Part shown: positions 16,486 through 64,000 of the stretch, one piece after another
How positions within the stretch are numbered: position 1 is the first letter of the stretch
Layout: every line of letters begins with the position of its first letter
Translations under genes and position numbers: made by a program
From: Sabellastarte sp. h YS-2021
Taxonomy: Eukaryota > Annelida > Polychaeta > Sabellida > Sabellidae
DNA length: 64,000 nt
Reading direction: 5' to 3'
NCBI GenBank assembly: GCA_964017235.1
Contig: OZ024940.1
Coordinates: forward strand, 3,534,001 to 3,598,000
Notes under the pieces: model-generated
Told to the model about the DNA's origin: nothing
What the model saw: the letters and a program-made list of their open reading frames with translations, nothing else
The model's database searches: none

Positions 16486-16684
16486 AACTATCTCTGACGC
16501 TCAAATCGCCAAGGATCAAGACATCACGCTGTTTGTCATCGGGGTCACCAATAAGATTGACGAGAATGAAATCACAGCCATTTCCTCCGAACCCCAGGTG
16601 CAAAACAAGACGTACTGGTTGTTGCCAAATTTCCAGGCCTTGGAACCGGTAGTGCAAAATATAGCCAGCCAGATATGTACACAG
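16486..16684 (+). CDS. Gene A exon: C-terminal part of the vWA domain
   Basis: Translated after the acceptor 'tttttttag' it reads TISDAQIAKDQDITLFVIGV, continuing with an NKIDENEI segment and closing at QNIASQICTQ. It aligns by eye with gene B exon 37028-37227 and gene C exon 58102-58316 (beta strand 'ILIMGV', then an 'L..L.SSPRV.NQNYF'-type stretch). All three enter in phase 2. This exon leaves in phase 0, whereas its paralogues leave in phase 1. The longer antisense frame over it is a shadow. Confidence 0.85.
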
Positions 16685-19600
16685 GTAAGGGGGGGTTTCA
16701 TACATCTCTTCCAAAAGGCCTTTGGGCATGCCCCGTTTGTATAAAGTCAAGCGCAAAACAGCAGAAGAAGAGAAGATACAAAGCCATCTTCATTTTGAAG
16801 AAATCTCTAGCTTCTTATGGAACTGTGTTGACATGTTTTCTTGGGGATGAGATTAAAAGTAACGCTTTCAGTATCAAAACTGCAACTCAGAACTCAACAC
16901 TAGCTATATCCTACTCCATTTTGGACTTTTCTAGCACTTAATCTCTGCCCAAAATAGACTCTAAGGCGCAACACAAGAAACTTACTTAGTCATCATTATT
17001 CCATAGACATGGCCAGGTCAATAAAACAGAGATGCCAGGAACAGGAAAGTTGTAGGTTTAAACTATAAAGCAAAATTAAGTGCTTTTGTCATTTAAATAG
17101 ATTCAAGGTCAGTCCTAAATAATAATCTGTTGTGTGAGAATGTTAGTCTTGGCCATCAGCTATCACTGCAGTGAAAACTCTCCCTCATTGTGTTTTTGCT
17201 TTTGATATTTTGAAGGTGAACCTCACGGATGCGCGAGAGATGACTACCACTTTGGTCCCTATCATCGAGTCTGGTGAGTACTGTACACCATCGTTTGGCA
17301 CAGAGGGTAAAAAGAGATCTAAGTAGATGTCACATCCCAATGTTTGTGCAGCTTAATGAATACACAGCTTAATATACTGAAAGATGTGATAAGGTATAGG
17401 TTTCTTTAGGTTGTAATGCAATAGACTGTTCCTTTTTTTAAAGGGGGAGGGGGGGGGTCGGGGATCGGGAGGGGTTGCAATGCCTTATCTTAACTGCTAC
17501 TTATGTAAATGCAAAACACAATGGCGTGAAATTACTACTTGTTGAATGTTGCCATAACAACTAATTCCACCCTGAGCTGCTATCACTGATCCGTCGTGAC
17601 TCATGAGTACTTAGAGAGAAATACTGACATGCAGATGTTTTAAACATAAATATTTTGACGAGTGTCTGTAACTGCCTTGATTATACTCGATGATAGGATA
17701 GATAACGATACAGAAACATGTGTTCAGAAGTCATTTGAAAAGCGACATTTTTTAGGATTAAAAACTTATCGGATTAATATTTACTAGTTGCGTACTTCTC
17801 ACCATAATAATCTTCTTGGTACCCTTTCCAATCTTTATGTTATTGTTGAAAAGAAAATCAAGTGATAACTGTCCCACAGGCTTTTAACCAGGGCATATAA
17901 CTAACAACACAAAATGCAGTGGATTTTGCTTTTACAGTAGACTTGGCTTCATCTAACTCAGGCATGCAGCCAACTAATCATATGCTTCCTAATTTGGCAG
18001 GCACTACTAGCACTGCTGCTACTATTACTACTACTGCTGCTGCTACTACTACTACTACAAATTCACCAGCTGCTCTTTCAACACCACAAAGTCCAACTAC
18101 CACACAGGAGACTGCTCCGACTGGGGCCTCAGGTAAAAAATAAGATATAGTGTTGAAGACGGTAAACTGGAAACCTATTTGCCGACCGTAAGACAGTGAT
18201 CCAGTTACAATTCATTTTTTTCTAACCAATACCGGTTTCGTCACATATTCATTAATTTAACTTAAGTTAATGAAAATATTGAACTACAAAAAATAGTGTT
18301 ACGATCGAATGTAAATATGGAAACCGGGTCCCGAAAACAAAAATTCGGCGGAAACCGGATTCATTCGAATTAGTATACACCAAGCTGTAGTCAAGCTGTA
18401 AAACTTTCTGTGTGTGTACATGAACAATAATTTCAACTAAAATGTAGTTTATTTGATGATAAAACAGACGTTTTGGATATTATTTCAGTGTATATTGGCA
18501 AAATATTACAGAAGTTAATATTTTTAAACGTTTCTGTGCAGTATTTTATACGTTTTGATGTGAAATATGTGACATTTCGGGAACCGGTTCTTGGAATTTG
18601 TCACCGGATTTCATGTACTCTGTTATAAATCGAATAGAAACCAACTATCCGGTTTGCCGTCTTTATCACTAACAAAAAATATTTCCCAGTATTTTATAAT
18701 ATTATATGAAAATATCACACATTTTGTCCTCGAAAGTCTTCAAAAAGCCAATTTGTGCTTCATATTTATATGTGAGTTAGAGCTCATGTACGCATTTGAG
18801 AACTTAAATCTTCACGTTCAATAAATCAAACATACCCGGTTTTACACCAAATTTCTGCTTTTGGAAACCAGTTCTAAAATTCGCATTCAGCCACAAGACT
18901 GATAAGATATAATACAAATACTGTTGCTTGGCCCAGAAATTCAACACAACCCCCAAAGACAAAAGCCTTATTTCCCCAGATCATACACAAATCAGGGTGG
19001 GTTAATTTTCACAGAAATATACACAGGAACAACTGACAAGATATGAATCAACTTTGCACAACAAATGACTGACCCAAGTGGCCTTTTTACTTTTCAATCA
19101 TACTATTTTTACTTGAAATCAGCCACAACAACCAATCAGCACTCAGCTTACTAATCATCATTTATACCTCAGCCACCCTGATTGGCTAGATTTTGAACTT
19201 ATTTACTTCATTATTGTGCCAATATGAGACATGCCCCAAATTACCAAACAACACCTTAAGTGTTTAATTACGTTATGCTATGAATGCTATCTTTTATTTA
19301 TATTAAATATGTGTAAATTTACAATTTTATCAAAATTTGGATCAAAGCTAAGGTCTGTCAAAGTTTTATCAGTAACTCATATCCATTCTCCTAAAATAGT
19401 ATTAATTTTCCTTTTTATACTAAACTATCTCCTCCATTACACAACTCTTCTATTATCTGAACAAAATTTCACTTTCCCAGCACACTTGAATAACAGACAT
19501 TGTGATGTCACTGTATTTATAAAATCCAGCTACTGCAAATTTGGATTATAGAACTGTTTGTCTCACTTTACTACTTGTAGTGAGTTTTTCAGTTTTTTTA

Positions 19601-22600
19601 CTGATATGTGTACATTATGTTTCCATTTATTTTGATCTAGAGTTTCACATAGGACTACATTATTAAACTGGACTTTTATCTTTTGAAATTCTTCATTATA
19701 ATAGATACGCTACGTCAGGATTGAATTAACGGTTTATTTAGCTTCCTCAAAATTCCATTCGGAAACAAAATTAAAAATACAGTGTATTTAATAATTTCAT
19801 ATTAAACTGACAATATTTATTATTTAAAAAAAATGGGACGGGATTGCTAAAGTTTGGTATTCAGTGACTGAACACTCACCCATGTGGCTGTAGGTTTGAA
19901 CCCAGCTCATGACACCATGTCATATGTTCGGAGGGCCCGTCCCATTATGACATCAATCTGACCCACAGACAGGGATGTAAAATCTCAACTGTGACGCCCT
20001 TTAAAAACCCCAGGTGAAATGACCCAGATTTCCTTTACAAATCAATTAAAAAAAGAGAAAAAAAAACTGTGCTTCACAATGATACCACAAGGTATCATAA
20101 AGTCCCTTTAAAACGTATTGGATAAATTCATGAATTAAGTACAGTAAATAATCCATGGCTGTTTATAATACACAGGAGATGTCATGCATGTCTGAATAAT
20201 ATTAATGAGACCATTTTATTGATCGTGTCAACATAAAGCTTGTTATTACTTGATTCCTAATCTGTTAATACAATGGTCACACTTCCCCAATCAAGTGGAT
20301 ACATTTTATGTGAAGTTGTCTGGTGTAATGATTATTCTTTGGGAAAACAATATTACTTCTGGTTTAACTTTAGCATTTTCTGTAGAACATGAATAGATGG
20401 TGTTAAAGTAGTCGATTTCAAATGTTTTATGGTAAACTGAGTCACTATTTTGTGCAAGTTTTATTGCTAGAAACATTACGTGAGTGCAAACATTTCCCAT
20501 TTGCTAGTACAGTACTTTTCATTCATTGATTTTACATTCGTGTATTGTGGTGACATGTGTATAGTTATATGTATATTAACAAGAGCACTCACAGAACGCA
20601 CACCTCCGCCAAGACCCAATACTGCTTATGATAAAAACCTAAACTTTTAACAAAGTCCATTGCCAACATTTCCTGAAAATTTCATCAAAAATCCGTCCAC
20701 ATTTTTTTGAGTTATTTTTGCAAGCCCGTTCCCAATACATGGCTTGTGATAAATCACTCTTAACTAAGAAAACACAGATATATGATAACAAGAAAGTAGC
20801 CGTAATGTCCGGAGACACAAACCACAAAAACCAATCTTACTTCCCAGTTCCCATACTTGTGATCGGTTTAAATTCATTTGGAATTCGATATGACTTTTAT
20901 TATTTATTTATTTATTTGGGTTTTTACGTCGCTTTCAACAGTGTACAGGTCATATCACGACGGGTAGTTGGAAGGGCAGAGGAAACCAGTACATACAGTT
21001 CGTTAGGGTTCTGTACTGTAAACTGCCGACCAACGGCAAGCAACTACCAGCTTTCCCACTTGAGGCCGTGCCGGGAACAGAGCACCACTCTGCCACCGTG
21101 GCCCCGACTTTTATTATGGATGCATGAGGAAAGTTAAGCTAGACATTATATAAAATAAGGTAACATAGAGGCCACAGTGCCGCAGTGGTAACACACTCGC
21201 CCCCCACCTCTGAGATCTAAGTTCAAATCCCAGCCTGACCTCATGTGGGAAAGATGGAAGTTGCTTGCCGTTGGTTGGCAGTTTACAGAACCTTGACCAT
21301 CTGTATGTACTGGTTTCCTCCGCCCTTCCAACTACGGTGAACTACCTGTCACATTAATAACCGATAAGGCATTACGCATGATATAAAACACTAAATAAAT
21401 AAATAATGCAGTATCAGACTTTAGACACTCACTTCGTAATGGGTGTTCATTGGGGGCCACCTTATCGGCAAAGTGTGAACAAAGCTTTTACCCAATAAAG
21501 AGGAGTAGCTTCTCAAATATCAGCACAAATTTTAGCTACAAAGCGATTTCACCGAATTGCACAAAATGGAACACAAATTTACCACACAATTCTTTTTATT
21601 AATGGCCAAAGATTCTATTTAAGAATTGGACACAGATGTTTTATCGGGAGCAACATCTTTTGTTTGCAATAAACAAACGGATTCCAGTTAAAAAGGCACT
21701 AATGTTCAACTATACAGTTAAATTCTAATCCTTATGCATGGATAAACACGTCCGTTCAATTTAGTATACGATTGTGTTATGTTCTATAAACAGCCTCAAG
21801 GGGAACATATGACGGGAATTATACTGTCAGTGTTTATTAGGCAGAGCTTATAAACTGACTGTTATTATGTTTATTATATTAATGTCTATATTATTATGAG
21901 GTTGATTTCCAATAGATGTACACCAGTTAGTTTCCACTCACCTTAGATTATAATTTGATGTTTGTGCATCTGTTTGGATAATAACAAAAGACGGATTGTT
22001 TATTGCCTTTGGGAGACAATTTATGTACAGGAGAATTTATAGACATGACTACAACAGGTACTTAGAGTAAGAAATCTAAAATTCGCCAGGAATCTAAAAT
22101 TCGCCACCTCTAAAACCTTAGTTAATTTTATGAAGAAAATGATGTTTTTATCTAAAAATTGGTATTTTTCAGTTCAAAAAGCCTTAATTTACTATACAGT
22201 CAACAAATCTCACCACAATTCATTTATTTTATTAGTATTTTCACATGTGGCGAATTTCAGATATGTGGCGAATTTTAGATTTCTTACTCTACATATACTG
22301 AGTAATTCTGATTCATTTGGGATTAACAACTATTTCAACCCATTACACAAGGTCATATCACAACTGCTAGCTGAGGGGATGGAGGAGAGCAGTGCATACT
22401 GGTTGCATGCCAAGATTCTACACTAAAAACAAACCATCCAGTATCTCCAAGCAACTACCAACTTTTCACACTGCAGATCAAGCCGGAAATCGAATCCAAG
22501 ATTAAATTTTAAACAAGGCCGAACAGGGTTTCGGTCTACTAGTGCAAAGCCATCATAGACAGCAGTAGTGCACTGAAGCAGTCACCCACCCAAGTACTAA

Positions 22601-25600
22601 CGTAGGCCATTGCCGCTCAACCTCAGTGGAGATACAGATACTCATCACGCTACGCCACAATCCATGAAAGTCCGGGGACAAAAAACACAGGAAGAAAACA
22701 ATCTCTAGAAGCGCGAGCCTCACTAGAGCTTGTGTTTAAAAAGAGTTTCCAACACAGTGTTCAAAAGCCCACAGCAATTCACTGATTTAATGAAAATTAA
22801 GAAAATTGTGATCTATCCGGATCGATTCAGCGATTACTTTTTATTTTGTATTTTCAGTTGCTCCCGCATCTTCTTTGATTTCAAATGAAAACTTAATCAT
22901 CGGTAAGTTTCAGTGGTTTTATAGCATATTGAACAGTTTCAGAGTTGGGTTTGTAAGAAATTGAATACAACTGATTATCTTGGCTTTTTCCAAAGAAGAA
23001 GTTTGTATATTTACACTTTAAGTGTAATATATAATAGACTGGTATTCAATATCAATTTCTATTCACATTGTATTCAACACAATCAGGTGTTGAGTTTTGT
23101 GGTTTTTAAAATTCAGGATCATTGAATTTTCAGGCACACTTATCTCCTGTATTTTAAGCTGTAACATTTTTTAAAAAAAATTCAGGCATAACTCAGATAA
23201 GCTTTTTTAGGAGATGACAGGCTACATTTGTAGTTTAACAACCAAAAAAATTTAACGCATTTTTCTTGGCAATTTTTTCAAACCACTTCACAACTGGTTA
23301 TCTTCATTTGTTTTTGGAAAGTTGGAAACCAATGACTGGTTTTGAAAAGTTAAAACCAACTCCAGCTCTTAGTTTGTCTTAAATATAAGCCTCTTAAGCA
23401 ACTTAAGTTTCTGACTTTGTTATCCTAAAAGTGGTGCCAGCAGACAAACTATTTCTTTGCCTTGGCAAAGTAGCATGTTCCAGTTTTCTCTTCTCTATTT
23501 GCAGGAGTAGGAGTACTGGCAGGCCTCCTATTTCTCCTGCTCCTGATCCTGTTGATCCTGTGCTGCTGCTTCAAGAGCACACCATGCTGTGCCGGTTTCT
23601 GCGGCTGCTGTCCCTGCTGTGCTGGTGACAACAAACCTCTTTGTAACACAGAGCTCTTCTGCTGTTGCGGGTCGATATTGTGTTGCTTCTGTTGCGCCCA
23701 GTGGTTGCTCTGTTGCTGCTGTTGCCTGTGCTGGACCCACCAGCATCACACGTAAGTATTAAAAAGAAAAGCCAAGAGTCTATCCATTAGATTTGTCAGA
23801 AACACTGGTTTTTCTCAGGTCACCACAAATTCATGTACTGTGAGTACTAGTGAGATAAAGAACAGACAGACAGACAGACCTGATTACAATATCCTTGTCC
23901 CTATCTCTCCTTCAGTGTAGGCAAGGGTGAAACCCAATAAAATCAAAACAGATAAAAGTTTAAAACTGAGAGAGTAGAAGTCCCCTGTAAGACAGGATTA
24001 GATGGGATTATGTCCACCAGTTCAATTATTCAGTTGTAATTCGAGTGCCATAACATTGTTCTGTGTTGATTTAATTTTGTTTTTGTAACACTGTAATTTT
24101 TAAGCTTTGTTTTATTTATCTATTCACCTATTATTTATTTATTTTTTTTTTTGTAGTGGGAAAGTGTCACCGTCTGAAAGTGGTGAGTGACTTTATAAGT
24201 ACTCAATATAAGTACAGTACTCAATAAGTACAAGTACTCAATAAGTGCTATAATGATAATTCATGAAATGATTCAAAATTTGTATGAAAACAAGTCCATA
24301 CAAAGAAAACAAAAATGAACACATATGATCTGTTTCAAAATGCATAAAACCCAACTGGAAAAAAAATCCTTCAATTATCTGAAACAAGCCGTATAAAAGG
24401 AAACTTACTTGAGGAAGATGTATATTCAAAAGTCAAACATATTAGAGTAAGAAATCTAAAATTCGTCAGGAATCTAAAATTCGCCACCTCTAAAACCTTA
24501 GTTAATTTTATGAAGAAAATGATGTTTTTGTCTAGAAATTGGTATTTTTCAGTTCAAAAAGCCTTAATTTACTATACATTCAACAAATCTCACCACAATT
24601 CATTTATTTTATTAATATTTCAACATGTGGCGAATTTCAGATATGTGGTGAATTTTAGATTTCTTACTCTAATCAAAAATTAATTATATCTGTCTCTTTC
24701 TTTCCCCAAGTTATCGCAATCATTCACCAGAAGGACCAATCCACAAACACCAGCAGAATCTCGGTTAAACCCCCGCCGGTCATGCCGGCCCCGGTAGAGC
24801 CACCTCCACCGGCAACCAAGACCATAGAAGTATGCGGTAGATGCATGAAGGAGATGCCGCAGTGTATCTGCTCAAGGTAATGGGAGATAGTAACTGACTT
24901 CAGTAACACAGCACAATCTCACTCATTGACTATAGAATGAGAAATATTTAAGGACACCTTAGTTCATGGAATTATGTGAATTTATAGCATGAAAACTATT
25001 GAATATTAGTATACACCGGAAAATGGGGGTTAATTTAACAGTTGTCACATTTCTTGTGTTTTGCTACCTTCATTACTACCTCTAGTATTAACCTTTCAAA
25101 TCAAAGGACTATGTAGAAAGATGCAAAACATCCAGCCCTAAAATACCTCTCGATTTTTCATCCATAAGCTGAACAGTATAAACAAACTCTGTTATCCGGT
25201 GGTGTTGGGGGAGTAGGACTTTCGTCCGATAACTCAAGACTTGTGAACTAGAAGAGGCACTGGTGTATACAGCAACAGGGAAATACAGAATTGGGAATCA
25301 AACATTCAAATAGTCTGCAACAGCAGAGGGTTTGTAAAAACAGAAAAGCTATTTTAGTATAGAAGATGCCAGATGGTAGAGAAATACTACTTTGGGAAGT
25401 GAAGTGTTATGAGCGTTCAAATCTTTCCAAAATGGGGTCTGGGGCTACAACTGAATGGTTGGTCCAATGCGCTTTGTATTTGGATAGGACATCTTCAGTG
25501 GGATTCACATTTGACTAGGACTCCTTTAGGACAATTTAACACAACTCAAAAGCGTTTTCAAGACCACTCCATTTTAAATGTATGAAAAACCTGGCAGGAC

Positions 25601-27196
25601 CACTAACCAGCTGTACTACACTATACAGGCTGGACGGCAGAAGGGGAACCAGGACAGATACAAAGGGTGGATCATTCTTTACCCTGTACTACCCACGTTG
25701 GTAAATCAAGTACATGTACATACAAATACAACCATAAGGCAAGGTCTAGTCATAAGAGGGTTCATAAAATATCAACATTTAGACAAAAAGAAGATTTGAA
25801 AACTAAAAGAGGTATTTTATTTTAGAGTGTGAAAAAATGAGTTTGTAAAAACAGACATTCAAACAATAGAAGGTTCTAATGTCTTTCTATTTTTATACAG
25901 CCAAAAGTACGTGGTGGTACCGCCCCCAGTTATGCAACCTGTTTACATGCCCCAACCCCAGCCCCAGCCGATAGTCGCCCCCCTCCCAACCCCCCACTTG
26001 CCCCCTCCCCTCCCCTGTCCAACATGCTATGGCCAGTACAGCTCCAATCACCATCAGCACTGTGGCTGCCATGACAGTTATTGCGAGACTTGCGCCCATC
26101 AATGGAATAGTGGACACCAGTCCGCGGCCATCGACAGCAACCAGGTAAACATGACTGTGTCCATATGGGTCTCTCTCTTCTTTACAGTTCATCTCACACT
26201 TTTCGGCTTTTTCGGAAATGTTGTATGAAACCTTGACAACCAAGATACTAAACTGAACAAAATTATCACGGCGCAAACATAAATAGGGTCACATTTTTCT
26301 TTGTCCAGCAAGGGTCACATGACTTCATGACTATAGTTTCCTATGTTTTTAAACTTCCGAAATTGTCCCCGTGGACAATAAATTGAGAAATATAGAAAGT
26401 ATACAGCCAAACTTTCTACTATGCTAAAAGTACAACTACATAAAACTGTAGTAATATTACATATAAGTGACTCAAGTACTTATTTATGGACAGGGTAATA
26501 CAAAGGTTGGAAAACTTTTATTCTTTTCTTGTTTGGTATCATAAAGTCTGCGTACAGTCTTATTCTACTGACCAAAAATTAGTTTTCTGTAAATTTCTAT
26601 AACTTTTATATGGAAATGATATATATTCTAGCCCAGCTGGTACAATCTCTTCGATATTATTTCCACAAATAATGTAAAAGCGACTTTGTAAACTTTGACA
26701 ATTGCTTTCCATCAGGTACACTTGAAATACCATCAGAAGAAATCAGCTTCGACCAAGAGGAAGACAGTGGAAGACCACTCACAGAGCGACACCGACGCCG
26801 ACATACACCGGATGTCACAGCAGTATGAGAAGGTCCTTCAGCGAAGTAACGAGAGAGAAGAAAGAAAGAGGTCAGACGTCAACAGGTACAGTCTTTCCCT
26901 TTCGTTTTCACTATCATTTTTCACTTACAGTTCCTAGTCCAAAGAGGTCAAAGGTTAACTAGTCCAGTACTTAGTTTCACTTTTGTTTTAAATATATTGC
27001 TCTAAATAAAATACACGATTCTTCAGTTAAATCAAAGAGCAGTTAAATGTTTTTCGATATATAGCTTCCTCAGACACAAGTCCCCTCAGCCAGAGTTCCA
27101 GTTTCAGTTTTGTTTTCCATAAATAGCTCCCAGTTCCACACAGTTCTTCTGTGAGGTCAAGACAGGGGATAGAGGAGATCCATTCAGTTTCTCCTT

Positions 27197-27571: not shown

Positions 27572-28097
27572 TGAAGGGGGTTAGTTTGTAGCAACGAAGA
27601 CTGGGTTTATGGATAGAACAATGAGGTAAAACTGGTGTAAAAATCTAAATGACAATCAGATGAATTGGTATAAAAAGGAGAAAAGTGCTATTGTTAATGT
27701 TGCAAAGGAGCAAACAACAACATGCAACTAGACTAAAAATAAGACAAAGTGCTTAGTGTATATTTTTACATGTAATTGTTGATTATATATAAAATCTGTA
27801 ATGTTCTATGTAATTAAACATATTGAATGAATGTATTTATATATTACGCATACATAGAAATTCTTACAGTGTATGCATACTTATGTATAAAATGTGTATA
27901 CTTGTATATCATAGATATGACATGTTTTGTGACATGTCATATCTTATGTACAGAACATGTATTTACTGTCTATTTATAATACTGTACATTTTTCTACAAA
28001 TGAAAGACATAAATATCCATTTATATCCACTTACTACAGGGTATATTTACCACTTTTTTACCCTGGGGTATAAAAATAAGCTGTGATGAATCCTTTA

Positions 28098-28352
28098 TAA
28101 TTACCAACCCCCAAGGAGGTTATGTAATTGGCAGCATGTTTAGTCTGTTTGTTCCTTTGCAAAATAACTCAAACAGTTGAGTGTGATGAAATTTTTAGGA
28201 AAGTGTCAACAATGGCTAGATTTTGCTGGTGATCCGGATTGCAGCGTCTGGATCTAGGAATTTTTTAAGGGATTTTTCTATTCTCGCATTCATCAGCAGT
28301 ATTGGAGGTGTTGAACCTTGGCAGAGGTATGCACTCTCTGAGTGCTCTTGTT
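28098..28352 (+). mobile_element. dispersed repeat, 'gagtgctcttg' family, in the gene A 3' UTR
   Basis: Starts near 'caccaaggaggtta'-like sequence ('cccccaaggaggttatgt'), contains 'gcaaaataactcaaacag', 'gatgaaatttttaggaaag' and ends 'gcactctctgagtgctcttg'. It shares the order of these blocks with the minus-strand copy at 20581-20735. Confidence 0.65.
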
Positions 28353-28770
28353 TTGTACTTTTGTTTTTTTCCTTGCAGCATTGTGTGTAAATGAGGCCTT
28401 AAGTAGGAATTTGTATTGATTCCAAGTGTGATATGTAAAAGCGTCTGTGATACTTATGCTATAGATAATGTGATATAAGAAATATTTAGATGTATATTTA
28501 TATCTCTAAATACAATTGTAACCCATTAAGTGGAATCTAGATTAAAACAACAAAAAATACTTCTACTTAACCAGGAATTCCAAATATCAGGCTAAATTTC
28601 AACTGAAATTGTTTTTCCACTGAAGACAGAACTTCAACTCAGCACAGATCTACTTAGAGGGGTTACATTGTATCAGTTAATGTGTTAAACAGTTGAATTA
28701 CTACTTATTTTCTTGTACATTTAAGGCATTGTACATAAAAAGTGCTTTTATGAACTTGTTTTTTTTTACT

Positions 28771-28776
28771 AATAAA
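28771..28776 (+). other. candidate polyadenylation signal of gene A
   Basis: AATAAA lies about 1.2 kb after the gene A stop codon (27569-27571), followed by a T/G-containing stretch. I found no other canonical signal between the stop and this point, so the 3' UTR probably runs from 27572 to about 28795 and includes the dispersed-repeat copy at 28098-28352. Confidence 0.5.
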
Positions 28777-28799
28777 TTCTTGTTACAAAGAAATTGTTA

Positions 28800-30050: not shown

Positions 30051-30054
30051 GAAT

Positions 30055-50341: not shown

Positions 50342-50357
50342 AGGACATTTATAAAAA

Positions 50358-50508: not shown

Positions 50509-50599
50509 AGGACAGTGTGGGAACTGGTTTACAGATTGTGTATCAACAATTGAATTGAAGTCACCTTTTAACAGTACACGTGTGCATAAACTCACTCTG

Positions 50600-53500
50600 C
50601 CATTTAAACAGAGTATATACAAAACAGACAATAGGAACAGTTACAATAATAACAGAGATAAACAGTGAGTTTACACACCATACCAAATAAGTAAGGAGAT
50701 AGGGAAATAAGATGGTATTCAGTCAGCCATCAACCTAACAGTAAGGTGACTAACTTCTAGCCATATGACCGTGTGTCAGAATTTGAAGTGGCCTTTTCTT
50801 CATGGTTATATTGTTTTATCATGTTGATGGTGTTTTATGTCCTTATGGCCACAGAGTTATCAATCCTATTGATATTTAGGTTTACAAGGAAATTCGTGAA
50901 GGTTTTTATTTTAGTTTCTTAAGGTTACATTATACACTCCATTATCCCACAGCGCTAGAAGAACTATATTGTTTGTTGGTTATTAGAAGGCTCATGAATA
51001 TGAAGAAACGCTTTAGCAGAAAACAAAGTACTACAGATTTGGCAGATTAAAAATGAGTTTGTAAAATCAAATCTATGAAGGATGGTTGATAATGGCGGTA
51101 CAGTAGTTGAATGCACTAATGAGGTCACAGAGTACAGAATATGGACAACAACCAGTATGCACCCTGTTCCTCCATCCCCTCAACTACTCTTCATGATATG
51201 AACCCAATATATACAATGTGTTAAAACTTCTATTAAAACTCTCAGAATCAATGGATGTATATTGAGTCGTTTGAAAGGCTAATCAATCTAAAGCAGGTGT
51301 CATGTGAATTACATGATATCATTTGACAAATGTTGTGAATATCTTAACAAAGGTCCCCCCTCCCCCAGCCAAGAAAAGGACAAAAGAGACATTTAAAGGA
51401 AGTACTCTGCACATATATTTACATTATATATTGGCACCTAACTCACAAACATCGACTTTGTTACTCAAGCTGAGAGCTAAAATTTTATATTTATTAGAAA
51501 CCACAACCTCAGAGATGGGAGGCCAGTGAGCCACCTTGCTTATCTGCTTAACAGATGCATTGTGGGTAGGAAATTTATAACTAGTTAGAGTCACCCACAC
51601 ATAAAAGATTTCCTACAGTCAAACTACAAACACAAAATTATTATTGTAATGCAACTCTACCTGTGAAAGGTTAAAGATTCTTAATGGTTTAAAATAATTT
51701 AATTTACATTTATTTCTGTTAATTCTTAGCCCCATCTAAAAAAATCACAGCTTAATTAGAAACCAAAACAAGAGAAGCATTTATTAAAATTTTAAGAAAT
51801 ACCACAGAAAAACTTTAATAGAAGAGAGAAAAATCTAGAAATAAATGGACACAATGGCAAAATGCATGAGAAATCACCTTATTATACAACATAAATATAC
51901 ATTTTTATTCAAAGATACCCATGCAAAATAGACCAAAGAAGAGCAAATAAAGGTCTTCTGTTGACACCTGACTAACAGCATGAATCTTATAACAGTCTAG
52001 TGACATTGCAAAGATTAAATAAAATACACCATTACAATATCAAAAAAAGTACATCTTTATTCTCCTGTAGTAAAAACCTACTTCATTTAATACTCTAAAT
52101 AAGCCCAAATTATAAATTTTGTGTTCACAAAACGAAAATGAGAAAGCACTTGTATGCCTTTTGACCAGAAAGTAAACGACTCCATCCAGAAAAACACTGA
52201 CATCAGCTTACGACACCTTACACCTCATTCCTTTGTTAAGAAGAGTTTCATGTTACGTAATAGATGTCCCCATTATTGCAGGACTTGAAGTACTCTCTCG
52301 CTATCGATCTGAAATGCTGATCTGGCATGGCGTATTGAGTAAGACTGACATAGGGTCACCCCATTTGCCTGTCTCAGTGGGTGTAGCCTATCCGGCCGGA
52401 GATATATTTAAACAATGTTTCCATTTGACTGGAGAAGTGTGAACGATGTTTTAGTTTTGGAAAAAAAAATGGTTTAATTGCCCTCCACAAGTAAATAGAT
52501 ACAAAAAAATACCAGTCGATCATCGGCTCAATGTAAGAGAAACAAAAGTTATTTCCAAATTGGCCACTTAAAGACAACCCCCCTCCCCCAGTTGCCTTAT
52601 TGGCTTACTTTCATTATTTCTACTTTCAGTTATTGGACATTTTAATGAAATTTTACATTTTATTTTTGATCATCTGCAGAATTCGAGTTTGCTATGTTAA
52701 TTTCAAAGAATTTGTTTCCCCCAGATGGCAAATTTCAGAGGCTCTAGCAAAATTTCACCTTTACTGCGCAAACTACTGAGCAATACCCGTGACACAATCC
52801 ATACTGAGACATTCTGCCTGCGTAGTTATTATAAAATGCTGACTAAGTCAAATACATTGGCCTAAAGGGGCCACGCAAAATTAAAATATCGCCGTTGCCT
52901 GAACTTGGGCAAAGAAAAGGCATTAAATTTGCTTTATGCTCAGAATTTTGCTTTATCCATGCTCAAGCCTAGGCTCTTTCCATGACCGGATAGGCTCTAA
53001 GGCGCAAAGAGTGACCTGTAATGTCAGATGGTTTGTTTGGACAGGATTACCCATGGCACACCCAGTAGAGTGGTGGTACCAGAAATTGTGGGTTGAGGTC
53101 TCCTCGAAACCTTGTCCTGTGAACGTACTATGTTATGGAAAAAGAATGCTTGGCCCCTTTCGTCTTCAGTAAACAAATTATCGTACATAGGTTCTTCTGA
53201 GCAAAACGACTTGCATTATTCTTCCTAAATACAGTATGTGTAATGCAATCCTGTACAGCCCACTGGCCAAGGATTTCTTGTACCAAAGTCCACAGATATT
53301 TAAGGCGTATTTTGCCGGTTTGTTATGTTAGATACACTTCTATATACATTCATCAATAGGTGTGTATTTTTGACTAACAAGAAAAAAGAAACCTCAACAC
53401 TATCGTTGATATTTTCCAATTATTTCTACTAGTGTTAATTCGTACAGCCTTGGAAGGACACTGAATATGCACAGGGATAAAAGGAATGTTTATGTAATGA

Positions 53501-54300
53501 GAGGACATTGATGAGTTAACGCAGTTTCAAGAGAACATGACTCAGTGGATTTTTTGTCTATAAATTATGTGTTTTCATGTTGCTCATTTGGGGGCCTGAT
53601 GTCATTGTGTTTACCAGACTAAAAATCTACACGTGTTGACATGAGCTTTGGGGTCATTATTCTTTCTGGAGAAGAAATATAAACTAATATTTAGATACTT
53701 ATATATTGGATGGAATATGTGTGTTTTATTAAATTGTAATTGTGGGTAGCTCGGCAATATATGGTGTTACAGATATCTGTATGTAGTTGGATCTATGAAT
53801 ACATATATATAGTTCTAATTAGAAGCTGTAAGTGATGGTTATTGACATGGAATATGAAAATCTAATTTGATAATATAATTTGGATACTTCTGTGTATTAA
53901 AAAGTGTATTCATATTTTTCCAAGACAAATTAGTTAAAACTAGGGTAACAATAAATATTTATATATGTTAACAGTTGATTTTCGTTTTATGCAAGTTTTA
54001 CATAATAACTTAATATATCTGTTCAGAAGAACTGTTAGTTTTCTCTTTTCAAAACCAAAAAAGAAAAGAAACAACCTTTCTTTAAAGACAACTGTATTTG
54101 CTTACGTCAATACATGACATTATGCTTAATTACTCACAATAAGCACAAACAAGGATTTAATTCACCAAAACAGCGCTCAGAGTATTTGTTCATATAACGC
54201 ACATGTTGTATACACTGGATACATTTATAGGAGTGTAACAAGGTACATGTTTTCATACCTATTATACCCGAAATACTTCTTTTGGGTCGGTTTAGTGTAA
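50600..54300. other. intergenic region between genes B and C
   Basis: AT-rich, without a recognisable gene, element or tandem array. Frames at 52233-52442 and 52936-53172 have no recognisable motifs and no homology I can name. The gene C promoter should lie near the right end; no convincing core element was identified. Confidence 0.45.
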
Positions 54301-54349: not shown

Positions 54350-57300
54350 ATGGCCAGAATTGTGACCTCAATATTTCATGTGTCGCTGTTTTTACTCGGA
54401 CTGTGTGGGGTGAGTTTTGCCCAAGTCTGCACGGATACCATAGATCTGACCATCATGTTGGATAGCACCAGCCAAGTCGGGGCGAGTAACTTCCAACTCC
54501 TCAAAGACTTCGCCAGTGACTTTGTCTCATCGGCAACTCTGAGGGTTTCCTTTGGAACAGTGAGTAGATTTTGTTACAAAAAGGTCGTGGCTATGGTTTT
54601 AAACTCTTTTAATCTAGTTTCTGTTTTTAATAAAGGGTTTCTTCTTTTTGAATGAGGCATGGTAGCAGTGGCAGGCAGCATACTTGCCTCCCAGTCCTCG
54701 GGTAGTTTTTCGAATCCCAGACTCGACCAGAAATTAAAAACTCGGTAGTTGTTTGACCGATTGATGTCCAGTGCTTTCTTCAGTAACTCAAATCTGGATT
54801 TGTCTTGAAACCCAAATCCAGTGATCATAAATTTATAGGTAAATACGTAATATAAGCAGAAACAGTTGTTTTTTCCTCCAAAATATAGATTGATAGATAC
54901 AGATTTAAAGCTGGATTCAGCAGATTCTGTAGGGTCATATCGTAACCGGTAGGGGGTGGAGGAAACCAGTGCATACTAGTTGCTCAAGCAGTTACAAAAC
55001 TTAAGTAAATTTAACACTTTATTTAAAACAGAAATAGATGTTTCAAGGCAAGACGTGCAATTAAAAGACAAAACATATTCAGAACTGATATAAAAACTAT
55101 CGGCCAATGTCAACTGTAACTATTACTTTAACTTTCAACCCGGACTTCTTTCACAAAGAGCACTGATGTGTAATGTCTTATTCAGCTAGTGTATTTTGGA
55201 CCTTTGTAAGGACACATATGTCGAAGTTATCATGCATGAAGGTTGTGGGATGGTGTTGGGCAAGCTAACTAACCTTTCTTGGGTGTTCAGTTGGACCACA
55301 TATTTTATTATTTTAAAGAAAAAACACCCTTGAATTTCTAGTGTTTTAATATTTCTTTCAACAGATTAGAGTTTAATAGTCCTGTAGATTTGATGCCATA
55401 TAAAATTCATCAGTATACATTGACGTTCAGGGAAGTTTACTACTGTTTAAGATAAAAGTACTTAAAGTTTTTAGTACAAGGAGATCAAATTGTTGGATTT
55501 TCTGCCCAAATTTATTGTGTGGTCATTGAAATAACAGCAAGGCAAATGCAAAGTACAACCAACGGGGTTTCTAAAACTGAGAATTTAAGAAAGAGACCAC
55601 GCTTGCGGCTTTTTGCAAGGCTAGTTAATGGATATTGACAAAGCTTTCGACAATCTCCAATTATACTGAAATCACAAACCTTCACAACTGCGTGAAAACT
55701 GTCAATGTATGTATGATTTCTACACACACAGTAAATGAAGAAACTGTGGCTTTAAAGAATATTTCACTTCAGTCATAAATGAGTACCTTTTCTGTGGGTG
55801 TTTATAGAGTTCAATAGGATTTTTAATTCTGAAAACGTAGCAAGGTCTCCAGTCTTAACTACTCATCTCCAGTGAATGGCTGATTGTGCTCAAGTTATTC
55901 TTCAACTTCATGTTTTGATTTGAAGGAAACAAGTTTAATGCCAAAAAGGGAGAGGAAATATGAATTGATGCAATTTTTTATAGTGTTACAGCCAAATATG
56001 TCCTATTAAAAGAATCCATTTAAAAACATGATAAACAAGTTATACAATGATGCTGGTTATAATAATATGTGTATGTTGTGTGATCTCATATACAATGAAA
56101 TTGCAGTAATGCAAAAAAAAAGTGCCACAGTTTGAGCACTTCGCCAGTAATAGTAATGAAGGAAATAAGAAAATACTCCAAATTCATATGAAACATCTTC
56201 ATACGCTTTTGTGTTCATAAAGGAAATGTCCACCTGAAAAAAAAACAGGTCAAAACTAAAATACCATTGGACTGACTACGCAAAAAGATAAGTTTTCTGT
56301 GAATTGTGTATTTTCATTTGTGTATTGCGACCTGACAATATGGAGAAGCTTATTCCGTTAAATGATGTACTGCAGTTGTAGTTGGGCAATAGGAACAGAA
56401 AGGTGATTTCATGGTGGTAATTAAAACTGCTTGACCAATAGAGAAAATTAATATCTTTTTATTTTTGTTGTATTTTTTTCGGTTTCAATTGCAGGCCACC
56501 TTGCTGATGTGTTGCAAAAGTTGCATTGGGAGGCCCTTGGTAGCTTAGGGGGTCAGCAAGTTTGCCATCTCATCACAGGCTATCACCTCTGTGTGGGTTC
56601 CTCACCCACAAGTATCAAATGCTGAGGGTCTGTCCATATATGACCCTGGCAGTTAAATGGATCATTAAACCCTGACTTTGAAGTTTGTACTTTACATTGT
56701 TTGATGTTATGGGGGGCGGCATACACAAAAGTGACACAATAATCCCAAGATTACCTCCTTCACAATAGCCTGTAAGTAAAAGGAGCGATAAGTAGACGTA
56801 AATTGCTTGCATTTTGCAACTTCGGCTTAGTGTGAATCAGCTTAGCTTAGCTTCACACTTTCTCTGATAAGTCTCCCCCAATGTACCCATATTTTATATA
56901 GTCTGGTACCCTGTCTTACAATTTTCATTAGGTGATTGATCAGCTCACTTTCAGATATTTGACAAAGGTTAATTTTAGAAATACTTGGGTTTTTTTTTTT
57001 TTTTTTTTGGTTATTTTCTTTTTCTAGACCAGACTTAACTTCATGCAGTATGACTCCAGCGTATTGGTCAGTGGCAATTACTTGACTTCAAACCGACGGG
57101 CGGAAACCGCAATACAAGATACCCAGTGAGTACGGCACTGTAATCTTGCTATTAATATGATCACTGCTGAGGAATATTTATGGACTAGTTTGAGTTATTG
57201 CATATATTCATTTTAGCAATATTCAGATTATTACGGATCAAATGAATCCCAAAATTTTCTGGGAAAGCAGCCATTGTCGCCCTGTAAATGTTACTCTGGC

Positions 57301-60300
57301 CTCTCCAGCTATATGTCTTGGGTCATGTGATCTGATTTCAGCCAATGGCAAGTTTTAATACATAATAGCCATTAATGGGCCAAATGAGCTGATTTCAGGC
57401 ACTAAAGATTGACAGATTTTGCACTAGTAACCGAACATCACATCTTCTTCAACAGTACTTAATCCATTAATCAATAGCTTACTATCGCAGGTACATGGGA
57501 GGGGCCACTAGGGACACTGGTGCAGCTCTCAGCTTTTACCTCAACAACCCGCGGAGCAACGACCGGGCAGCCAACCAGAACGTCATCCTACTTCTCATGG
57601 CAGGGCCATCGGTGGATAAAACCAGGTACTTACTGATCAGAATGTACTTTAAGACTATACTGGTTTAAGACAATTGCCCAGAGCTGTGAGTAGCAAGAAA
57701 AGAAAGACTAGTAATTATTTACAAATATGTATAAAACTAAACATTGAGCACAAGTAAGAAGTTTGTCTTTAAGTTTTGTCAAATGACAATGCCAAGCACT
57801 AGTAATTTTCTTCAAATATGCAAGCTCCACCTACTCAAAGATTGACAGGAGTAACATAAAGCTCCATTATAGGACAAATTGTTTAGAGCAGCTATGTAAG
57901 AGGTCCACGGTAGCCTTGTGGTTAGCAAGTTTGGCATCTAATCACAGGCTGTCACCTCTGTGTGTGGGTTCAACTCCCACAAGTGACAATACTGAGGACC
58001 TGTCCCAATATATGACCCTGGCTGTTGAACGGGACGTGAAAAACATTAACTTTGACGTTGAGCAGCCCTATTAGTGTGATACCATCCTTTGTTTTGTGCA
58101 GTGCTATCCAGGCGGCACAGACTCTGCACAACGCCGGCACGGACATTCTCATCATGGGAGTCACGGCCAATGTGGACCTGGACGAGGTCAGACAGCTCAC
58201 CTCCTCGCCGCGGGTGGCGAGCCAGAACTACTTCCTCTACACCGACTACACGGCCTTAGCAGGGCAGGCAGCCACGGTGGCAATGGGGTTGTGTAATAGA
58301 GATACACCAGGACCAGGTAAGTTATCATAGAGAGGTCAAGATCTACATCTACAGCCTAACATGTACTGTAGTTTCTGCGAGAGCATGTGGCCATTTCTGT
58401 TTGCTAAAGGCTTAAAATTTATATATTTTTGTGTATATGTTTATAGCCATAAATAATTCCAAGTAATTGTTAATGGGAAGAATTTGAAGGATTGTTTAAT
58501 TTAGTATTAATATACATTTAAGTGGACTCTTGCATGCAGTTTTAAATAATCAACAATTTATATTGATCAGAACTTCATACCTGCCAATTTACTGAGATCA
58601 GTTGTCTTCTATTTATATTGCAGAAACCACTACTACCACGACTCCTACCACCACAACTATTCCTACAACCACCACTATACCTACAACCACCACTATACCT
58701 ACAACCACCACTATTCCACCAACTACCACTGTTCCTATGACTACAGATGCACCTACAACCACCACTATTCCCACAACTACCACTGATGCACCTACAACCA
58801 CCACTATGCCTACAACCACCACTATTCCCACAACTACCACTGATGCACCTACAACCACCACTATGCCTACAACCACCACTGTTCCTACAACTACCACTGT
58901 TCCTATGACTACAGATGCACCTACAACCACCACTATTCCCACAACTACCACTGATGCACCTACAACCACCACTATGCCTACAACCACCACTATTCCCACA
59001 ACTACCACTGATGCACCTACAACCACCACTATGCCTACAACCACCACTGTTCCTACAACTACCACTGTTCCTATGACCACAGATGCACCTACAACCACCA
59101 CTACTCCTACAACCACAGCTGTTCCCACAACCACCATTGCACCCACAACCATCACTGTCCCAACTACCACGGTTTCTCCAACGACAACCACAATGGTTAC
59201 TATAACCACCACTCCTGCTACTGATACTGTTCCCACATCTACCCCAGAGCAGACTTCAGTGCCAGGAACTACTTCACTAGGTGAAGCTACAAGTGAAGGT
59301 AATTTGTCTTGGTTAGAAGACCATTGTTGTACAGAAATCAGCCTCAATATTTGAAATGTACATGAGGAACATGAGGTTGTTTGGTCTCCTAGTTAATGTC
59401 TTGATTTGCAAAAGTATTGATATTATTTATTTATTGAAATATATATCAAGACATGCTAAATATGTTAATATTGATACTATAGGGTAGAATACCAGTATTG
59501 GAACAATTGGTACTTGACAGATGGATCTCCGTTGTTTAGTATAATACATATTATTATTTGACAGCAACACTAATTTGCATTCCCTTACATGGTGACTACA
59601 GTATCTTAGGTGTTTTCTTGTTATATAAATATTCACATATTGAGTGGATTTGGTTCTTTTTCTGCCATATTAATAAAATCACAATCCCTCCAGAGCAGCC
59701 TTCTCTTCTCTCAGTTTTTCTGTTGGCTCAGCAACTAGTGACTTATAGGCATCCACCACCAAAGAAGTAGTAACTAAGGCCTATTCAGAACATCTATTTA
59801 ACCACTCATGTAACAACTCCTGTAATCTCTTACTCAAACAGATTAGTCCTATGAAAAACACAGACTACATCTTCTATCAATACTAAAACATTTACAAGTG
59901 CCCATCTGCTTATATAGCTACAGACGGTACTACAACCACAAGAGCATCAACAACTGTGAAAGCTCCTACAACCACAGATTCACCAAAAACCACAAGTTTT
60001 CCTATGACCACAGAGATTCTAACAACCACCGAGACACATGTAACCACAGAGGATCATATAACCACAGAAACAACCACTGGCGGTCCTATCACCACTGACG
60101 CCAGAACAACCACAAAGTTGCCAATAACCACAACTGATGTTCGTAAAACAAATGAGGCTACTGCTATGGTTACCACAACAGCTTCTACTCAGAATACAAT
60201 GACAGATATCTCAATGACTGTGGAAACTCCAACTGAAGGTAGTTTATTATCCGTCAAATATTTTCAATGGAGAAGTTAATAAGCTATCAGTACATGCAGT

Positions 60301-63300
60301 AAATACACTGAGGATCACAACTGACCTCATGAGTTCACCATTATTTATGTCCATCATGGTAATCTGTAATACCCGAGACATCTGTCTAGTTGAGTTAACC
60401 TACTTAGGGAACCAATCCAATCACTATTGTGTTAGCATTTCAGCCACATAAGCACACATAACTCGTAAAAGATTTATAACAACCACAAAAACACCTATAA
60501 CCACAAAGGATCCAGGAAATTATGTTGCCTATTATAATGCAAACCGATACCTCAGCGTTTACAGATTATCCTGTCAATAATGAAAAAGTAAAAATTTTGT
60601 ATAACCACAGATGATGCAGCAGTCACAGGAGCCCCAGTAACCACAAAAGCCCCAACAACCACAGGCACACCAATAACCACCACAGCTCCTGTACCCACAA
60701 GTGATACCTCAATCATTGATGCCAGTATAACCATAGATAGTGATAAAACCTCAAAAACATCTTCATTCCCAGGGGTTACTACAACTAGAGATTCCTCAAT
60801 AACCACAGACAAGTCTATAACCACAGAGGATTTTACAAACGAAGGGGCTACTGATGCTACTGTGGCTGCTACATTACAAGATATCTCAACAACAGGAAAA
60901 CCTACAACTAAAGGTAGTCAATTGGTGTCTTGTGTTTATTTCAAATTAAAAATAAAAGGAATTTGCCGTTTTTCTAGGTCAACACATTCATGTATATCTA
61001 ATCAATTAAATTACCCTATTTTACAAGAAAATATTGCACAACGTGATTGTTCTATATGTTTGACCAAGATTTTCTATTTTATCTTCTACAGTTTACACAG
61101 AAAAGCAATATTGATAATGTCCTTGATGTACATGTATTTGTAAGTGATAAATATTGTTGTTTGGTCTTTAATTAGTGTTCCGGGGGCCACGGTGGCAGAG
61201 TGGTAACACTCTCGCCTCCCACCTCTGAGGCCGGGGTTCGGTTTCCAGCACGGCCTCAAGTGGGAAAGCTGGTAGTTGCTTGCCGTTGGTCGGCAGTTTA
61301 CAGTACAGAACCCTAACAAACTGTATGTACTGGTTTCCTCTGCCCTTCCAACTACCCGTCGTGATATGACCTGTACAGTGTTGAAAGCGATGTAAATCCC
61401 CAAATAAAATAAAATTAATTAGTTTTCCAATTACTAATCTATATATACCTGAAACATGAGGCCAAGTAAATTTAACTTTATGGACAACAAACTGCTAACA
61501 CATCAATCAGCTTTTAAGTTTTTGACAAGATTATAAATTGTTAAAGTTAATAAATAAAAATACAATTTCATTATTGGCATAAAATATGAAAGTACATGTT
61601 TATTGTTAATTCAAATTAGTATAAGAATTATCTCAGAAGAATGTCTTTCTAAACATTCTGAGTTTTATCATTTTTCTATTCATTGAGACACTTTAGAAAC
61701 ACAATAAAACTACACTTATATATAACTGCACCTTTTATATCAACTCAAGTAACTATGGGGACACAGACTTTAGAAAAACCACAAAAATAAACATAACCAC
61801 ATTGCCTCTTAAAACTAACAAAAATTACCACTGAAATACTTAAAATCACTGAAATAACCACAGGTTCAGTCAGAAAAACATACATAATAACAAGCCCAAA
61901 CTAATACCTGCCCTATCGCAGATTATCCTGTTAATAATAGAACGGTGACAAATGTTCATGTAACCACAGATGATGCAGGAATCACAGGAGCCCTAATAAC
62001 CACAAAAGTCTCTACAACCACGGGAGGTGCCATAACGACCACAGCTCATATATCCACAGATGTTGCCACAAGCACCGATGCTGGTATAACCACGGGTAGC
62101 AAGACAGCCACAAAAACTTCTGAAACCGCAGAGGTTGCAACAACCAGAGGTTCTTCAAGAACTGCAGATGATTTTATAACCACAGAGGGCCCAACAAACA
62201 TGGAGGCTACTGACACTGCTATGGCCACGGGTAGCAAGACAGCCACAAAAACTTCTGAAACCGCAGAGGTTGCAACAACCAGAGGTTCTTCAAGAACTGC
62301 AGATGATTTTATAACCACAGAGGGCCCAACAAACATGGAGGCTACTGACACTGCTATGGCCACGGGTAGCAAGACAGCCACAAAAACTTCTGAAACCGCA
62401 GAGGTTGCAACAACCAGAGGTTCTTCAAGAACTGCAGATGATTTTATAACCACAGAGGGCCCAACAAACATGGAGGCTACTGACACTGCTATGTCTGCTA
62501 CAACCACCCCCGTTCAGAATACAGTAAAACAGATCCAAACAACAGGAGAAGCTACAACTGAAGGTAGTCTGTAGGCATTTTGTGTCTTTTCAACCCAAGA
62601 AACAAAGAATTCTGGGGCCGTATTCATGAAAGGTCTTAGCCAAGTCTTAGGCTTAAGTGGACTATATTTTTATAGAAAAGTTAAGCCTAAGACTTGGCTA
62701 AGACCTTTCATGAATACGGCCCCAGGCTTTTGGCTTAAGTCAAAAGGGTTTTACATCCTATTCAACAGCCAGGTTCATTAAAAACAGACAAGCATTCACA
62801 ACCACCACAACACCACTAATGTTATATCAACAGCTTAAGTAACCACCACATTAACTGTAAGTACAGTGGAACTAGTAACAGATCATCTAACATATGCTAA
62901 AAAATTATTACATAGACACCAAACAATAAACAAACTCCTGTCAATCACTGATGATCCGATTAATGAACAAACAATATCACCTTGTATAACCACAGGTGAT
63001 GATACAAGCACAGTGATTGAAGTAACCACAGAAGTTCCCACAACCAAACTGGCATCAATAACCACAGTGGAACCTTCAACCCAAGTGACCGCTACAAGGG
63101 GTGATATAACCACAATAAGCCCCTTGTCAACAACACCAGAGGCTCTTAAAACCACTCCAGAACAAATTACAGTGATGGAGACAACATTAGGACCAACTGT
63201 AACTGGAGGTGAGGTTATTCATGATGCAAGTGGGTGGGCACATATGGTGTTGTAGTGGTTGTACACTTGCCTATCACTATTGAGGCTGTGGGTTTGGAAC

Positions 63301-64000
63301 TAACACACTGTTTCCACCATATAATCAACTCATGAAATCACACATGCTGTAAATGTGATAAAAACCCTTATTATATACAGTAACATTAACCCAAACCCTT
63401 TTTTTGTGATTTTTTTCATATTTTTCAAAAAAGTAAGTTGATTCACTTTTGTGAGTGGTTACATGGGTTATATACGTTATCGCTTTAATAAAATTCAGTG
63501 TCTGATATTCCTATATTTTTCCCATGAAACTACAATAAACCTAAGACATGTGCAATATACCAGTTCTTTGTGTCATTTTAATACACAGAAGTATTTGCAG
63601 CAAGTATACACAAATATCCCAGAGTCTCTGACACAAGTTATGTCTTTGGTCTTACTGTTAGGTTCCTACTCACACTTTATGCAAGCTGAAACACTCCACC
63701 TTCTTATTGCCAGAGTTCCTTTTTTTGCACAACTCTTTCTGTTGAGCCATTTTAGCTAATGTCGCAGACTTGTACACTTTACCCCATCTTTATAAGTACA
63801 GGTAGCACACCATTTTTGGGGAATTGAGAGAATTTGGTTCATCATCAAGACTATACATTCTCCTGTTGTCTCCCTGTTGCATGTCTGATTATAGTGCTAG
63901 TACATTGTGTGATAATGTTTACCATATCTATATTCATTCAGATGTTACCAGTAATGTAGTGGGTACAACTACTCAACTGTTGGTTTCTACAACTGATGCA
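54350..64000 (+). CDS. Gene C: vWA protein with long multi-exon mucin stalk, 3' part beyond window
   Basis: Ten exons in frame give 957 residues so far: 54350-54559, 57028-57125, 57491-57625, 58102-58316, 58624-59298, 59918-60238, 60611-60913, 61922-62563, 62996-63208, 63942-64000 (cut). The ATG has a purine-context 'acaatATGGCC'. The signal peptide (SIFHVSLFLLGLCGVSFA) is followed by QVCTDTIDLTIMLDSTSQVG. vWA continues with TRLNFMQYDSSVLVSGNYL, YMGGATRDTGAALSFYL, NVILLLMAGPSVD, ILIMGVTANVDLDEV and SSPRVASQNYFLY. The stalk is Thr/Pro-rich and probably heavily O-glycosylated. By analogy with genes A and B a transmembrane/Cys exon should follow outside the window. vWA phases (0, 2, 2, 1) equal those of gene B. 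The MIDAS motif is incomplete (DSTSQ, MAG in place of the usual DxSxS and TDG). Inferred surface receptor or adhesion protein; ligand unknown. Confidence 0.87.
54653..54840 (+). mobile_element. tRNA-derived SINE fragment in gene C intron 1
   Basis: 'gaggcatggtagcagtggca' followed by 'catacttgcctcccag' and a B-box-like 'ttcgaatccc' form a tRNA-like head; the body is weakly similar to family 1. Confidence 0.5.
56528..56685 (+). mobile_element. family 2 tRNA-derived SINE, diverged
   Basis: 'cccttggtagcttagggggt' and 'cagcaagtttgccatctc' form the head; 'tcacctctgtgtgggttcc' and 'tatatgaccctggcagttaa' match the copy at 57901-58055. Confidence 0.78.
57901..58055 (+). mobile_element. family 2 tRNA-derived SINE, best copy
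   Basis: Head 'ggtccacggtagccttgtgg' then 'ttagcaagtttggcatc' (A box), B box 'gggttcaactccc', body 'tgaggacctgtcccaatata' and tail 'ttgaacgggacgtgaaaaac'. It ends 46 bp before the gene C exon at 58102. It lacks a pairable acceptor stem end, so it is a SINE and not a tRNA gene. Confidence 0.85.
58624..59298 (+). CDS. Gene C stalk exon 1: TTTTxP mucin repeats
   Basis: A 675-bp phase 1-1 exon of 6-7 residue units (TTTTIP, TTTTMP, TTTTVP, TTTTDAP). They are organised into a 168-bp (56-residue) larger unit: the 'cctatgac' landmark ATG occurs at 58737, 58905 and 59073. It ends GEATSEG. The 244-codon antisense Val-rich frame is a shadow. Confidence 0.92.
59918..60238 (+). CDS. Gene C stalk exon 2
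   Basis: Phase 1-1; starts after 'tatatag' at 59917 or the in-frame alternative 'ctacag' at 59923. It encodes TTT/TTE/TTD-rich sequence (FPMTTEILTTTETHVTTEDH ...) ending VETPTEG just before 'gtagt', the same ending style as the other stalk exons. Confidence 0.8.
60611..60913 (+). CDS. Gene C stalk exon 3, with a shifted upstream part
   Basis: Encodes DDAAVTGAPVTTKAPTTTGT and further Ser/Thr-rich sequence ending TTGKPTTKG. The homologous exon at 61922 starts 49 bp earlier relative to the 'gatgatgca' landmark. Here that upstream part has lost 2 bp, so using the matching acceptor (60564) would run into a stop. The exon must use the weak acceptor 'ataaccacag' at 60610, or it is decaying. Confidence 0.6.
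61182..61414 (+). mobile_element. tRNA-derived SINE, family 1
   Basis: Head 'ggggccacggtggcagagtg', body 'actgtatgtactggtttcct', A-rich tail. A 14-bp duplication with one mismatch flanks it: TTAATTAGTGTTCC (61168-61181) and TTAATTAGTTTTCC (61415-61428). It lies in the gene C intron between stalk exons 3 and 4. Confidence 0.92.
61922..62563 (+). CDS. Gene C stalk exon 4 with perfect 135-bp triplication
   Basis: Starts after 'ccctatcgcag'. Encodes DYPVNNRTVTNVHVTTDDAG and Thr-rich sequence, then three copies of a 45-residue unit (starting TGSKTATKTSETAEVATTRG, closing TNMEATDTAM), ending TGEATTEG. Phase 1-1. Confidence 0.87.
62091..62493. repeat. 135-bp coding tandem repeat, three identical copies
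   Basis: 'cacgggtagcaagacagcca' starts at 62091, 62226 and 62361. The three copies look identical over their shared length, so the duplication is recent; 135 is divisible by three and the protein frame is preserved. Confidence 0.96.
62613..62724. mobile_element. 112-bp hairpin MITE, perfect 44-bp stem
   Basis: Starts TGGGGCCGTATTCATGAAAG and ends with the exact reverse complement; 44 bp pair perfectly around a 24-base loop. It begins 49 bp after stalk exon 4. The perfect pairing implies a recent insertion; transcribed, it would form a very stable hairpin. Confidence 0.93.
62996..63208 (+). CDS. Gene C stalk exon 5
   Basis: Starts after 'tgtataaccacag' and encodes GDDTSTVIEVTTEVPTTKLA and more, ending TTLGPTVTGG, phase 1-1. 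Its start (ataaccacag|gtgatgat) matches the probable start of the exon at 60611 (ataaccacag|atgatgca). Confidence 0.78.
63942..64000 (+). CDS. Gene C stalk exon 6, truncated by the window
   Basis: After 'tattcattcag' the frame continues as DVTSNVVGTTTQLLVSTTDA to the last base, in phase with the preceding exon. Confidence 0.72.

Follow-up and report, generated by a model that had tools for sequence, protein, structure and literature searches.

The window analyzed here, 64,000 nucleotides of the sabellid annelid Sabellastarte sp. h YS-2021 (contig OZ024940.1, here C21:3534001-3598000), holds three paralogous genes, A, B, and C, all on the plus strand, which belong to a row of related genes, at least eight in number (A to H); D to H sit downstream of the window. 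We consider it rather probable that this row is a tandem family of animal type I membrane proteins with a von Willebrand factor A (vWA) head, a threonine-rich stalk, and one membrane helix, which would serve metal-independent adhesion. A preliminary description of the sequence had proposed three same-strand vWA loci forming one local, expanding family, and had recommended a hidden Markov model (HMM) search for vWA and a search of the flanks for vWA combined with a cysteine cluster. Both searches bore the proposal out. PF00092 is matched by B (E = 2.7e−18), C (E = 5e−23), and A (E = 3.9e−5, last vWA exon only), and vWA exons 1 to 4 occur in seven copies (B to H), all in the same orientation in a stretch of about 118 kb, with gene A in addition. 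The flanks yielded the membrane/cysteine exon of gene C and genes D to H. Because they confirm the layout of C and add genes, our confidence in the family reading has risen.

The layout claimed for all three genes was a signal peptide, a vWA domain, a stalk, a helix, and a dense cysteine block just inside the membrane. Gene B has all of it inside the window, in the following exons:

34366-34596 (+), exon 1, signal peptide (by eye) and start of vWA
35310-35410 (+), exon 2, vWA
36006-36143 (+), exon 3, vWA
37016-37227 (+), exon 4, end of vWA
38031-38273 (+), stalk exon, phase 1-1
39391-39614 (+), membrane helix and cysteine block, ending at a stop or at the donor after 39601

The donor at 39601 reads AA/GTATGT, and the in-frame stop at 39612-39614 is either the gene end or intronic. 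In gene C the layout is completed by an exon past the window, which gives an open 12-exon chain of 1,411 residues up to the cysteine exon:

54350-54559 (+), exon 1, signal peptide (by eye) and start of vWA
57028-57125 (+), exon 2, vWA
57491-57625 (+), exon 3, vWA
58102-58316 (+), exon 4 (C4), end of vWA
58624-59298 (+), stalk exon, 57% threonine, with internal repeats
59924-60238 (+), stalk exon
60611-60913 (+), stalk exon (C7), duplicated with its flank as the next stalk exon
61970-62563 (+), stalk exon (C8), holding 3.0 copies of a 135-bp repeat (62090-62493)
62996-63208 (+), stalk exon
63942-64000 (+), beginning of a stalk exon of 1,152 bp, which continues beyond the window to C21:3599093
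C21:3601969-3602091, further stalk exon, outside the window
C21:3603709-3603910, membrane/cysteine exon, 5.7 kb past the window end

Gene A does not fit the claimed layout as far: its signal peptide and first three vWA exons are not in the window. Its readable parts are the last vWA exon, the stalk, the membrane/cysteine exon, and tail exons:

16486-16684 (+), last vWA exon (A4), 26-27% identical to exons 4 of B and C
17216-17273 (+), candidate bridging exon, phase 0 to 1, unproven, one of six candidates
18001-18132 (+), threonine-rich stalk exon, phase 1-1
23505-23751 (+), membrane helix and cysteine block, phase 1 to 2
24711-24876 (+), possible proline/cysteine tail exon, with a phase mismatch with the best acceptor
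25901-26144 (+), proline-, cysteine-, and histidine-rich tail exon (A8), phase 2 to 0
26716-26870 (+), tail exon with an uncertain 3′ end
27325-27571 (+), last exon, with the stop and an uncertain 5′ end

The vWA exons of B and C are bounded by canonical splice sites, with end phases of 0, 2, 2, and 1. Three of their junctions share an alignment column, the fourth is at most 2 columns apart, and 77 of the 217 aligned residues are identical. The vWA exon of A aligns to exon 4 of B (E about 5e−7) and of C (E about 1e−7). Across B to H, automatically picked donors give phases 0, 2, 2, 1 in 27 of 28 exons, and acceptor phases fit in 20 of 21. The matching phases described earlier were thus recovered for the B and C vWA exons (0, 2, 2), for the stalk (1-1), and for the cysteine exons of A and B (1 to 2), and failed at the join of vWA to stalk in A. 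Identities between vWA domains range widely (F-H, 84%; G-H, 77%; F-G, 76%; C-D, 62%; B versus the rest, 31-39%), and the array is therefore a mix of old and young copies, the likeness of F, G, and H supporting local expansion.

A metal ion-dependent adhesion site (MIDAS) includes the motif DxSxS and the aspartate of TDG. We read both positions in the seven aligned genes B to H, anchored on the HMMER alignment lines (gene A was not readable). At the TDG position stand TSG (B), MAG (C), LVG (D, F, G, and H), and IAG (E); at the DxSxS position stand ENTAY (B), DSTSQ (C), DCTGD (D), DGSAD (E), and DNSAD (F, G, and H). The aspartate of TDG is gone in all seven genes and DxSxS is kept in none. Because DxSxS and the TDG aspartate are not kept in B to H, metal-dependent binding has probably been lost in the family, as in collagen VI alpha-3 domains, several of whose domain lines also lack the TDG aspartate.

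The stalk differs greatly in length among the genes, as had been claimed. In gene B it is one 80-residue exon (20% threonine, 15% serine), compared with 1,125 residues (37% threonine) spread over many phase 1-1 exons in gene C. The seven stalk exons A5, B5, and C5 to C9 are all phase 1-1, with threonine contents of 20-57%. Exons C7 and C8 are duplicates that include the intron flank (74% over 307 columns), and the three copies of the 135-bp repeat in C8 are 100% alike. The length of this coding minisatellite can be typed in populations.

In A and B, the membrane/cysteine exon begins in phase 1; a phase-2 donor comes after it in these two genes and also in C and D. The A and B exons resemble each other more than their composition would explain: their alignment score was reached by 0 of 2,000 whole and 0 of 2,000 blockwise shuffles; that of the cysteine part alone was reached by 8 of 2,000 and that of the helix alone by 128 of 2,000, so that the helix similarity is not significant by itself. 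Helix hydropathy is 2.9-3.3, and a structure model of the cysteine exons places a helix at residues 2-21 with low confidence (mean predicted local distance difference test score, 49.7). The module occurs in A, B, C, D, and a further copy on another contig, C6 (33-55% identity to D), and all 5 aligned members have cysteines next to the helix. Behind the first cysteine run, the alignment shows V[DE]SxCxx[IM]HCTxxGAxC in B, C, D, and the C6 copy; gene A, 33% identical to D, is without this signature. No Pfam family exceeds the cut-off in the membrane/cysteine exons of the five members (best, TMEM154 at a subthreshold E = 0.079), and the sole PDB profile match of the module has E = 0.18. An HMM built from the module and run over the open frames of C21:3504001-3698000 recovered A, B, C, and D; the remaining matches were weak (best E = 0.0032, minus strand).

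The cysteine block claimed earlier for the family thus holds for A to D and the C6 copy and is missing from F and G. These two have a different membrane exon (C21:3643911-3644024 and C21:3671443-3671556) with a short basic tail and a stop, ending in YAV or YIV (endings VVVPLVVVVVTAAAVGTYCFLHKHKAAQQRKTGHMYAV and VVVPVVVVVVTAAAVGTCCFLHKHKAAKQRRAGQTYIV; a phase-1 acceptor precedes that of F). The architecture is not uniform because of this exchange. In F and G the helix is followed by basic residues, consistent with an inner tail; together with the signal peptide, these suggest an N-outside topology.

We propose the following arrangement, which is read from sequence features. A collagen VI-type vWA without a working metal site would stand at the outer end of the stalk and bind protein or matrix partners through a metal-independent surface. 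The threonine-rich stalk is presumably O-glycosylated, and its length, which would evolve through exon gain and in-frame repeats, would set the reach of the head above the glycocalyx. One helix would anchor the protein at the cell surface. At the inner face, the cysteine module of A to D and the C6 copy is probably S-palmitoylated beside the helix and, further in, may serve to bind zinc or a partner; F and G would carry the short basic tail in its place.

Several observations weigh against this reading. The joins of vWA exons to membrane exons were read from genomic DNA. In gene A, the best vWA donor is phase 0 and the stalk acceptor phase 1, and none of the six candidate exons that could bridge this break is proven; a second hydrophobic cysteine-rich stretch in this gene (hydropathy about 2.0) might be a second membrane segment. 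The signal peptide of B is modestly hydrophobic (1.1), and the stalk exon of C that ends at C21:3599093 has an apparent GC donor (AG/GCAAGT) and not GT. Phase exceptions occur at the exon 2 donor of G and the exon 2 acceptor of E. A search found no membrane exon for E and, up to C21:3708000, none for H. The phase-2 donor after the cysteine exon points to tail exons in B, C, and D as well, yet a search downstream did not identify them, and nothing resembling A8 follows gene B. Tail peptides common to C and D were rejected as tail exons, as they look like a dispersed repeat.

The phase break bears also on whether A is an intact gene. It is a real possibility, if not one that we favor, that A is decayed or truncated at the edge of a satellite and that the window holds two genes and a relic. 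Its vWA exons 1 to 3 were found neither in the window nor in the 30 kb upstream, and the place expected for them is occupied by satellite DNA:

1-16345, array of a 168-bp satellite whose long copies are almost identical, 5′ of gene A

Positions 1-3260 match 7089-10346 and 12589-15846 at 99.05%, and the array continues through the 30 kb upstream (C21:3504001-3534000; 163 monomer matches), for a total of at least 46 kb. However, the membrane/cysteine and tail exons of A are open and have splice borders, and codon position 3 is the most divergent, as in other pairs of genes in the family. The assembled tail is proline-rich with two CxxC.

The closest PDB structures of B and C are matrix vWA domains, with collagen VI alpha-3 (N-type vWA) first, followed by VWF A domains and others. 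Collagen VI alpha-3 differs in that a single vWA and a membrane helix are present here, Pfam reports no collagen repeat in B, and the stalk of C is threonine-rich. The receptors ANTXR1/2 have a signal peptide, one vWA, one helix, inner cysteines, and a proline-rich tail, and the genes here resemble them in each of these features, the proline-rich tail being that of A. However, neither Anth_Ig nor Ant_C is matched, even at E as high as 1, by B or by the A tail joined by hand, no ANTXR chain is among the PDB matches listed, and here MIDAS is absent and the stalk threonine-rich. Apicomplexan MIC2/TRAP combine vWA, a stalk, and one helix, and their vWA domains are among the PDB hits; B has no thrombospondin type 1 repeat (Pfam) and MIDAS is missing here, and we know of no cysteine module in MIC2/TRAP.

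The matrix relatives lend some weight to a reading, in our view unlikely, in which the genes encode membrane-anchored matrix or shell/byssus-type proteins whose vWA assembles or organizes secreted matrix and is not a receptor. The loss of MIDAS is consistent with it, and gene C matches mussel PTMP1 (4cn8, E = 7.7e−7), a byssus matrix protein according to the title of a cited paper. The accessible text of one study counts 164 VWA proteins in pearl oyster and 162 in Pacific oyster, some of them in nacre, and presents expanded vWA families without collagen repeats; that text mentions no membrane helix, stalk, or cysteine module (PMC5597905). What makes us doubt a matrix role is the membrane helix with a conserved inner module in A to D, the lack of a PTMP1 match in B at E up to 1, and the lack of any evidence of shell-making in the source animal. 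The preliminary description had spoken of adhesion or immune-type receptors; we keep adhesion, as a function that the architecture suggests, and find the immune part unsupported. Self/non-self or immune receptors that vary in stalk and paralogue number would fit a tandem array with young duplicates (F, G, and H), in-frame repeats that are likely variable, and two kinds of membrane tail. But the variation is located in the stalk and not in the vWA head, and the assembled A tail has no immunoreceptor tyrosine-based activation or inhibitory motif (ITAM or ITIM), nor PPxY, NPxY, or SH3 class I/II motifs (the tails of B, C, and D are incomplete), so we regard this function as quite improbable.

Returning to a family of membrane-anchored adhesion proteins, the vWA module itself is common, and we could not find a description of its combination with a stalk, a helix, and a cysteine module in the literature searched, including the accessible portions of PMC5597905 and PMC4890752. 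We tentatively suggest, with more doubt than confidence, that this is an undescribed family in which a MIDAS-less head is joined to a mucin stalk that evolves in length and to a new cysteine module at the inner membrane, which younger copies have replaced by a short basic tail, so that reach and membrane output vary while the head stays constant. If so, a local family keeps its binding head and exchanges stalk length and membrane tail, and a conserved cysteine module without a Pfam family over the cut-off is added; by itself, this would change no long-standing question.

The genome searched comprises 1,785,957,881 bases in 647 contigs. Exon C4 gave 17 matches at E ≤ 1e−3, of which seven on C21 (B to H) and one on C6 have 41-100% identity; the other nine (27-40%) look like other vWA genes. 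The C6 copy comprises the end of vWA exon 3, exon 4, a threonine-rich open frame, and a membrane/cysteine exon. The cysteine exon of B matched only B, C, D, and the C6 copy, and that of A only its own site; since the B query missed A, the genome count of such exons is a lower bound. Of 364 candidates from a PF00092 search of the genome, 150 were scored and all of these exceed the cut-off, so vWA genes are numerous here. Dense clusters of partial vWA matches on contig C19 (about 34.0-34.4 and 66.5-66.8 Mb) are probably other split-exon vWA genes.

In the window itself, tblastn with 16 exon peptides (E ≤ 0.01) found no fourth vWA copy; its 35 matches are query sites, paralogues, and low-complexity stalk matches. 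Six-frame Pfam scans between the genes (27600-34360 and 39620-54300) gave no family at E ≤ 0.01, and two plus-strand frames of 16346-23500 were scanned as well; short exons may escape such scans because the known exon A4 reached only E = 0.0095 in one. Rfam and tRNA scans of the window gave no matches. Among viral contigs, there were no relatives of the C vWA or the A and B cysteine exons and no match to a repeat sequence, which carries little weight because the collection is viral.

Other repeats are scattered through the window. Copies of a dispersed repeat, roughly 230 bp long and as much as 95% alike, lie at 61183-61414, 48014-48242, 30880-31110, and 20907-21081. The start of this repeat looks tRNA-like by eye; at 47224-48750 it interrupts a minisatellite of 69-bp units. 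A 230-bp pair (22062-22291 and 24442-24671; 96.5%) lies between exons of gene A.

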